Below are positions 27,245-48,900 of a DNA stretch of 64,000 nucleotides, piece after piece; position 1 is the stretch's first letter, and each line of letters starts with the position of its first letter. Both the position numbers and the translations under genes were made by a program. The notes under the pieces were generated by a model. That model searched no databases. It was not told where the DNA came from and saw only the letters and a list, made by a program, of their open reading frames with translations. The stretch is from Acidobacteriaceae bacterium. Its GTDB lineage: Bacteria > Acidobacteriota > Terriglobia > Terriglobales > Acidobacteriaceae. The DNA is taken from assembly GCA_031296325.1 (NCBI GenBank), contig JARLFY010000030.1, forward strand, positions 1 to 64,000, given 5' to 3'.

Positions 27245-27676
27245 AATATTTCCTTATTCAATCGGTGTAGATGAAGCGGCAAAAGGGTGCAGAGGCGCCA
27301 AAGCACCTTGGAATTCCTTTAGTCAGCATTGCTACCTGAGTTCGAAGCGCTGCTGCTGCACGGCGAGACGCGTCCAGTGACGCATCTTCCAGCCAGAGCA
27401 TCCAGCGCAACTTCTTCCCTTGCTTTCCGACTCATCTGCTTCTGCGTCTTTCATTACGCGGAAGCCCAATGGCCGAGGTGTGGAAGATCTGCGGTGGCAG
27501 AGGCAGATCGCAGTCTCTGGCCAGACTACAGTCAGCAACTCAAAAGTTGCAGCCCGGAAGTCTTTGCCTGCGATGCCTACACTCGTTTAAGTCGAGCGCA
27601 AAACCAGTCTACCACATCCAGACGAGGAATAGGAAGACGGGATTAGTTCAGCAGTTGTTCCCGGTGAGAACAAGAA

Positions 27677-27896
27677 CCGACCACGGATAAACACGAATGA
27701 ACACGGATTAAAGACAGAACGATCTTGTTAGATATTTCCTGTATTGCGATAGACCATAATTATTTGTCATTCCGCAGCCATTATTTGTCATTCCACAGCG
27801 AAGCGGAGAAATCTGTTTTTTTCGTTGCACCACGTCCACGCCATTTAGGTGAAATGCTCTTATCCGTGAAGATCCGTGTTTATCCGTGGTCGGTTT
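27677..27896. repeat. ATCCGTG-family palindromic element interrupted by a CATTC element
   Basis: The left arm GACCACGGATAAACACG (27679-27695) continues to ACAGAACGATCTTG at 27727. The right arm TTATCCGTGAAGATCCGTG starts at 27859 and ends GATCCGTG..ATCCGTGGTCGG. An uninterrupted relative lies at 32702-32778, where the same two arms are joined directly. The remainder of the 27245-27996 gap shows no gene. Confidence 0.75.
27728..27861. repeat. CATTC dispersed element copy 8, nested
   Basis: Left end TTAGATATTTCC (27728-27739); a duplicated TTTGTCATTCC head at 27764 and 27785; right end GAAATGCTC (27850-27858) then TTA. TTA is found on both sides and may be the target duplication. It is inserted in the ATCCGTG palindrome. 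Confidence 0.72.
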
Positions 27897-27996
27897 TGTG
27901 CGATCTCCGCTACGCTAACTTCTACTCCGCAGCGCGAGTTTGCCCGCACCTCATCATCTCCACTATGAAACAATAGCTCCAGTTACAAGGAGCCGC

Positions 27997-29942: not shown

Positions 29943-30068
29943 CGTACTGAATTGTCGTTCCGTATTGGATTGTCATTCCGTATTGGATTGCCATTCCGTA
30001 TTGGATTGCCATTCCGTATTGGATTGCCATTCCGTATTGGATTGCCATTCCGTATTGGATTGTCATTC
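29943..30068. repeat. 18-bp minisatellite, seven units
   Basis: Seven tandem units close to CGTATTGGATTGCCATTC, the outer ones reading TGTCATTC. The array runs directly into a CATTC core (TGTCATTCCGTAGCGAAGCG at 30061), so it looks like repeated duplication of the element's first bases. No spacers, hence not CRISPR. Confidence 0.9.
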
Positions 30069-30155
30069 CGTAGCGAAGCGGAGGAATCTGCTTTAGCCTT
30101 TGCCTGTTTTGATTGTCATTCTGAACGAAGTGAAGAATCCCCGCATCTCGCTCGC
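30061..30155. repeat. CATTC dispersed element copies 9a/9b
   Basis: Copy 9a: TGTCATTCCGTAGCGAAGCG..GGAATCTGC (30061-30091). Copy 9b: TTGTCATTCTGAACGAAGTG..GAATCCCCGCATCTCGCTCG (30113-30153). Copy 9b overlaps the start of the LolA-like coding sequence. Confidence 0.8.
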
Positions 30156-32701: not shown

Positions 32702-32778
32702 CCGACCACGGATTGACACGGATTAAAGACAGAACGGTCTTGCTTTTATCCGTGAAGATCCGTGTTGATCCGTGGTTG
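32702..32778. repeat. ATCCGTG-family palindromic element, intact
   Basis: GCCGACCACGGATTGACACG on the left and GATCCGTGTTGATCCGTGGT on the right form an imperfect inverted repeat with a middle CAGAACGGTCTTG. It is the undisturbed version of the element at 27677-27896. Confidence 0.78.
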
Positions 32779-48610: not shown

Positions 48611-48900
48611 ATAATTGCAGATGAACCCGGATTAGAACCGTTTCTGGAATGGTATAGACCAGAGATAATTGTCATTCTGAGCGTAGCGAAGAATCCCCGT
48701 ATTTTGCTCGCGGTGTCACGGTCTATCCCTGCTCTAATGAGGCAGACCATCGCGCTGCGAGCAGAAGCAGATTCCTCCGCTTCGCTGCGGAATGGCAAGC
48801 AAATTGAACTACAGCAATTCGGAAGATACTCTAATGCAGAGTCCGCCCGTCTTTGCCTTATCCGCGTTGATCCGGGCTTCTATCCGCGTCATCCGTGTTA
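48611..48900. repeat. Second ATCCGTG-family element interrupted by a composite CATTC element
   Basis: Left arm GCAGATGAACCCGGATTA (48617-48634) and right arms TTATCCGCGTTGATCCGGG and GTCATCCGTGTTAAG (48858-48900). The inner CATTC composite covers 48635-48831. Together with the hairpin this fills the tpiA-rpsA gap; no gene seen. Confidence 0.65.
48635..48831. repeat. Composite CATTC element copy 12 (two cores, inverted)
   Basis: Left end TTAGAACCGTTTC, core TTGTCATTCTGAGCGTAGCG (48669-48688), then the opposite-orientation core GCAGATTCCTCCGC..TGCGGAATGGCA (48767-48797), right end GGAAGATACTC-TAA. The two cores can pair as a long hairpin. Confidence 0.78.

Follow-up and report, generated by a model that had tools for sequence, protein, structure and literature searches.

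Within the window (the whole 64,000-nucleotide stretch that was analysed), an ATCCGTG palindrome at 27672–27898 is interrupted by 129 bp (27731–27859) which are absent from a second copy of the palindrome at 32702–32778. The left arm of the split copy (27672–27708) consists of AAGAACCGAC and CACGGAT aaa CACGAAT gaa CACGGAT, the heptamers recurring every 10 bp, and is followed by the left part of the core (TAAAGACAGAACGATCTTG; 27709–27727); the left half over 27682–27727 reads CACGGATaaaCACGAATgaaCACGGAT TAAAGACAGAACGATCTTG. The same core is found in the unsplit copies C5, 32.7 kb and L089 and, as the reverse complement, in L066 and L068. A TTA (27728–27730) leads into the 129 bp and a second TTA (27860–27862) follows them, giving the layout ...CACGGAT TAAAGACAGAACGATCTTG TTA (129 bp) TTA TCCGTG..., in which the final A of the second TTA doubles as the first base of ATCCGTG. 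From 27862 the right half reads ATCCGTGaagATCCGTGtttATCCGTGG, its arm (27862–27898) being ATCCGTG aag ATCCGTG ttt ATCCGTG GTCGG.... None of these palindrome features was assigned to a strand.

The unsplit palindrome at 32702–32778, with its 24-bp core TAAAGACAGAACGGTCTTGCTTTT, represents the state before insertion. The original prediction had recognised a nested insertion and a before/after pair here and had located TTA at both junctions; the nesting, the positions and the junction bases all hold. It had also given the insert CATTC ends, which is wrong, as the ends are GATATTTCC...GAAATGCTC and the CATTC hairpin lies inside the insert, at 27766 and 27787. Relieved of its insert, the 27.7-kb site would be a palindrome carrying CTTGTTATCCGTG; this reconstructed empty site is 1–2 bases shorter than the other cores, which counts against the insertion model. 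No orthologous empty site was found for the 27.7-kb insertion, the DNA upstream of the M16 gene not being conserved in relatives.

Heptamer-arm palindromes and GxxExxY genes

ATCCGTG trimers are common in the genome to which the window belongs (G000; a 2.6-Mb assembly of 94 contigs, 88.8% complete). Most other sampled members of the genus have few or none, and across the class their distribution is patchy (22 of 299 genomes). When named genomes were scanned, the palindrome turned up in at least the Acidobacteriota, Planctomycetes, Verrucomicrobia, alpha-, beta- and gammaproteobacteria, Chloroflexi and Flavobacteriales, many copies reading TTAG-CCACGGAT...ATCCGTGG-CTAA. The arms were also considered as the ends of one large transposon at L077, where they lie 2.8 kb apart; this reading was rejected, the genes between them appearing to be housekeeping genes when their translations were inspected by eye. 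Outer ATCGGTG arms occur at L071, L082 and L085, and at L071 and L082 they enclose inner ATCCGTG-type arms, such that two heptamer types are nested.

Genes for GxxExxY proteins, to our knowledge a widespread family without known function, sit near repeats of this kind. In 20 genomes, 24 of 29 PF13366 loci are flanked by inverted repeats scoring at least 14, compared with 3 of 351 displaced windows; in a larger sample of GxxExxY genes (PF13366/TIGR04256; L366–L395 and L398–L487), sampled within the window's phylum with the best matches first, inverted heptamer arrays flank 99 of 122, compared with 1 of 232 displaced windows. The arms are arrays of two to three CRCNRAK units at 8–10 bp spacing, and the heptamers include CACGGAT, CGCAGAT, CACCGAT, CACAGAG, CACCGAG, CACAAAG and CACGAAG, among others. 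Repeat and protein co-vary: the heptamers around GFLE.VY genes end in T (26 versus 3) and those around GLLE.AY-type genes in G (56 versus 1), with a Fisher value of 1e-17 that overstates independence because the rows are related. The heptamer label changes twice along a maximum-likelihood tree of 87 domains, versus 23.4 times in shuffles.

The residues to be expected in a PD-(D/E)XK nuclease (E22, D61, E71-x-K73 and Q85) are invariant across 24 aligned GxxExxY domains. The PDB holds no sequence relatives of GxxExxY, and an AlphaFold model obtained from two sequences (mean pLDDT 52) was too poor for comparison. Among the loci listed from the trans-phylum palindrome scan, two matched GxxExxY, both without arms; outside the Acidobacteriota, the signs at four plasmid loci were weaker, three of them having a lone arm, a palindrome nearby or just one heptamer pair. 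The single GxxExxY gene of G000 (C13:28880–29205; L378, L388) is degraded, with an internal stop and split matches, and has CACCGAT arms (AAAGGCTTAACACCGATTGACAYCGAT). Within what is known of this genome the ATCCGTG copies are thus left without a partner, as are the MITEs. The palindrome-rich genomes G295 and G168 likewise lack a GxxExxY gene.

Members of this family with and without a gene behave as units. Between the cassettes L410 and L412 identity is 82% over approximately 480 bp, and the homology stops where the arms end on the outside, beyond which the flanks differ. Fifteen species of another genus (g135) were compared at three orthologous sites. At site A (L488–L494, L513–L514) two species have a gene cassette, one has a two-armed gene-less form and the six others read have nothing; at site B (L495–L500, L515–L518) one species has the cassette and the nine others read have nothing, with no clear target duplication seen at this site. 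At site C (L501–L512), gene cassettes are present in two species and gene-less palindromes in five, with CACCAAG, CGCCAAG, CGAAG-type, CGCAGAT and CACAGAG heptamers in different species; in the remaining five the site is empty, consisting of a 10-bp intergenic gap, which has been hit by different heptamer types. The filled, gene-less and empty states of orthologous sites imply that gene cassettes and gene-less palindromes alike are gained and lost as whole units, movement of the gene-less form being found at sites A and C for heptamer types other than ATCCGTG.

The best-surviving alternative, though still an unlikely one, is that the ATCCGTG palindrome has nothing to do with GxxExxY and shares the heptamer through convergence. 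The lack, in the 88.8% complete G000, of an intact GxxExxY gene bearing CACGGAT arms is in keeping with this; against it stand the loci L374 and L382, where CACGGAT arms bound the gene exactly, the CACGGAT arrays that adjoin the gene in L375 and L376, and the sharing of orthologous sites by gene cassettes and gene-less palindromes. On the best reading, the ATCCGTG palindromes belong to the GxxExxY heptamer family as members without a gene, the full-length members carrying the PD-(D/E)XK nuclease gene between arms whose heptamers recur at about one helical turn. From the association of arms and gene, their co-variation and the analogy with RAYT and REP (PMC2817692), the GxxExxY nuclease may be expected to bind the arms and to move the palindromes.

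More broadly, we regard it as rather likely that GxxExxY genes and inverted heptamer arrays of 10-bp period constitute a mobile class in many phyla, most members of which, the ATCCGTG palindromes of the window included, are gene-less derivatives. If so, there would be an origin for some of the most abundant palindromes so far unexplained in the genomes of environmental bacteria, and GxxExxY would acquire a testable role in recognising and spreading its own flanking repeats; a direct test is offered by the 15 related species in which a single site is empty, gene-less or gene-bearing. No description of a GxxExxY–heptamer system and no relevant match to the exact repeat strings were found in the open-access literature, where PDDEXK_3 was not found mentioned and GxxExxY occurs in two papers, in one of them as a passing mention.

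The inserted unit and its CATTC hairpin

The 129-bp insert (27731–27859, + strand) is non-coding and ends in inverted repeats of approximately 26 bp (GAGCATTTCn..TATAGACC) that adjoin TA. Its left terminal repeat (27731–27755, + strand) is GATATTTCCTGTATTGCGATAGACC and its right one (27834–27859, − strand) reads GAGCATTTCACCTAAATGGCGTGGAC as the reverse complement. In well-preserved units the left ends are close to AGAGCATTTYnGGAATTGCTATAGACC and the right ends, as reverse complements, close to AGAGCATTTTCGGTAATGGTGTAGACC. Compared with the MITE ends, seven IS630 ends taken from G059, G008 and G005 agree at 18–23 of 28 positions, TA included, and in a shuffled control none of 104,230 positions reached 18 of 28. 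The IS630-family elements with these matching ends lie next to TA in genomes of the same genus: one in G059 (L209), two in G008 (L192, L200) and one in G005 (L191). A DDE_3 transposase was confirmed in L209, which is the closest autonomous candidate. The L209 element (G059:C156, 1464–2492) is approximately 1029 bp long and has two overlapping minus-strand frames, as if read by frameshifting.

Judged by these ends, the insert belongs to the IS630-type MITEs: it has terminal repeats of its own and an apparent TA target, and the CATTC hairpin is its cargo. It was presumably moved by an IS630 transposase, which would have come from an IS630-like IS of the same genus, where the partner ISs are found; DDE_3 has no match in the 88.8% complete G000. 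TA flanks the insert on both sides in four split palindromes (the window copy, L081, L084 and L090), but in only 4 of 18 cleanly scored pairs of an automatically derived, decayed set. The third base, T, matches on the two sides of the window copy, though not in L090 (TTTA on the left, CTA on the right), so TTA at the window copy may be partly coincidence; the target duplication, which the original prediction had proposed to read from several cases, is best read as TA.

The hairpin occupies the interior of the unit, on the + strand, with a duplicated head at 27764–27784 (a 21-bp tandem step) and a core at 27787–27818 (GTCATTCCACAGCGAAGCGGAGAAATCTGTTT). The core was found in 40 of the 62 genomes of the genus, and at ten checked loci in other species of that genus the IS630-like ends are absent or weak, from which it follows that the CATTC family does not define the inserted unit. 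The view that the CATTC family inserts as a unit is accordingly kept for the insertion as a unit and given up for the identity of that unit, which is the MITE that carries the hairpin. In G000 a clear IS630 end is present on a given side in approximately 45% of CATTC copies and many copies have none; we attribute the missing ends and TA to decay. There are three nested levels: a CATTC hairpin within an IS630-type MITE within an ATCCGTG palindrome.

CATTC hairpins also occur in other arrangements. At 29956–30093 the hairpin head is repeated about seven times in tandem, in 18-bp steps, ahead of one complete hairpin, and shorter head duplications are seen in many copies (for example 27764–27805, L104 and L105). 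Two CATTC units that differ in subtype and face in opposite directions stand back to back at 48640–48880, beside a single ATCCGTG arm. Inverted pairs of CATTC hairpins lie within a longer, near-identical repeat at L047, L048, L049 and L093, several copies of which end in GGCCGTATCGACATATA and some of which are at contig ends.

An alternative agent would be a REP-type Y1 (RAYT) transposase moving the insert via its CATTC hairpin, with the IS630-like ends incidental. Conservation is much stronger in the CATTC core than at the ends, and other genomes of the genus, in which RAYT genes are common, have the core without the ends; the junctions, however, lie at the IS630-like ends and not at the hairpin, a PF01797 (Y1) gene has no match in G000, and neither CATTC nor ATCCGTG occurs within approximately 1.5 kb of 30 fetched Y1 loci of relatives. 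On the last of these grounds RAYT was rejected as a partner of either repeat, and its involvement in moving the insert appears improbable.

Recurrence of split palindromes in the genome

A pattern search of G000 returned about 45 places with ATCCGTG pairs, and the stretches around the matches were read and sorted. Approximately 21 are two-armed palindromes. Thirteen of these are interrupted by a CATTC-core unit (the window copy, L063, L073, L074, L076, L078, L081, two in L082, L084, L087, L090 and L095), L087 containing two such units in tandem. About eight are unsplit: C5, the 32.7-kb copy, L066, L068, L089 and L097 have a core of 21–24 bp with the consensus, in one orientation, AAAACAAGACCGTTCTGTCTTTA, and L062 and L070 look unsplit with one arm degenerate. 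A comparison of ATCCGTG copies across the genome, as had been suggested as a check, yields at least 12 further palindromes that hold an insert of this kind. About 1.1 splits would be expected (21 CATTC cores per approximately 9.8 kb of intergenic DNA in the window, applied to 21 cores of 24 bp) versus the 13 seen, with a Poisson P of approximately 2e-9; under this rough model the recurrence of splitting is not due to chance.

L090 reads GTCTT-TA-[GATCGG...TTCGCTC]-TA-ATCCGTG, and removal of the insert and one TA leaves a 23-bp core like those of the unsplit copies; in L081 and L084 the insert meets its flanking TA at the same core edge. Across the split copies the point of insertion varies between the left edge, the middle and the right edge of the core, and the MITE tips differ among split copies (TTTTAGG, TTTCTC, TTCTCG), indicating separate insertions into a preferred place. 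This weighs against the arms and the CATTC unit forming one composite element that moves whole, of which the short palindromes would be deletion products. Such an element would account for the CATTC unit being inside most palindromes of G000 and for the CATTC core lying directly inside at least 11 single ATCCGTG arms; yet the 23–24 bp core is kept in unsplit copies and reappears complete around the inserts of L090, L084 and L081, and the ATCCGTG trimer is nearly absent from same-genus genomes rich in CATTC cores. The composite element was already disfavoured, and we consider it very unlikely.

Least credible of all is a palindrome middle that is simply hypervariable, for which the differences of a few bases between cores and the approximately 75–120 bp of extra sequence beyond the MITE in L082 could be cited, but every large insert examined is the same kind of unit and the unsplit cores share one 21–24 bp sequence. 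The palindromes examined in G000 hold no other kind of large insert, so the unrelated sequence at the same point which the original prediction had named as the sign of hypervariability does not appear in these copies.

The nesting and its recurrence, the match of the ends, the association of arms with GxxExxY genes and the empty and filled sites of another genus together point to an account that we hold to be probable: an IS630-type MITE (27731–27859) would have inserted at a TA on the inner core edge of a pre-existing ATCCGTG palindrome, duplicating the TA, and the host palindrome would itself be a gene-less member of the mobile GxxExxY family. Counting against this account, besides the shortness of the reconstructed empty site, are the lack of an orthologous empty site, the many CATTC copies without clear ends or paired TA, the lack of an IS630 transposase gene in G000, the degraded state and CACCGAT arms of its one GxxExxY gene, and the absence of that gene from the palindrome-rich G295 and G168. 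The nesting would order the two families in time: the palindromes came first and the MITE moved later, in a genome that has yielded no transposase for it.

Comparison with known systems

The RUP element of Streptococcus pneumoniae, which is moved by IS630-Spn1, inserts at TA and is often nested in other elements (PMC2229807), is the closest precedent for the MITE. The two are alike in being MITEs of approximately 100 bp with ends like those of an IS630 of the same lineage and nesting in mobile elements (PMC2229807), and the TA target of RUP has its likely counterpart here; they differ in that the host here is a palindromic repeat, not an IS gene, and in that the present MITE carries a CATTC hairpin, has no IS630 in the same genome and has strongly decayed ends. 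The Correia and NEMIS elements are similarly short (100–155 bp), have TA ends and are abundant in intergenic DNA (PMC2229807), although their terminal sequence differs from that of the MITE, whose link to IS630 was tested by the end match.

For the host palindrome, the GTAG- and CGTC-tagged REP superfamilies are comparable as dispersed bacterial palindromes, some of which are linked to genes (PMC3733652); the CACGGAT repeat is absent from the text of that work. RAYT genes and their REP, BIME and REPIN repeats offer the nearer likeness, with a gene between inverted repeats, co-variation of repeat and protein, and many gene-less copies (PMC2817692), and on paper the GxxExxY cassettes work in the same way. 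The GxxExxY protein, however, is predicted to be a PD-(D/E)XK nuclease (PF13366) and not an HUH/Y1 transposase, and its arms are two to three heptamers at 10-bp spacing, not GTAG-tagged hairpins; the GxxExxY class would thus parallel the RAYT–REP system on a different nuclease fold.
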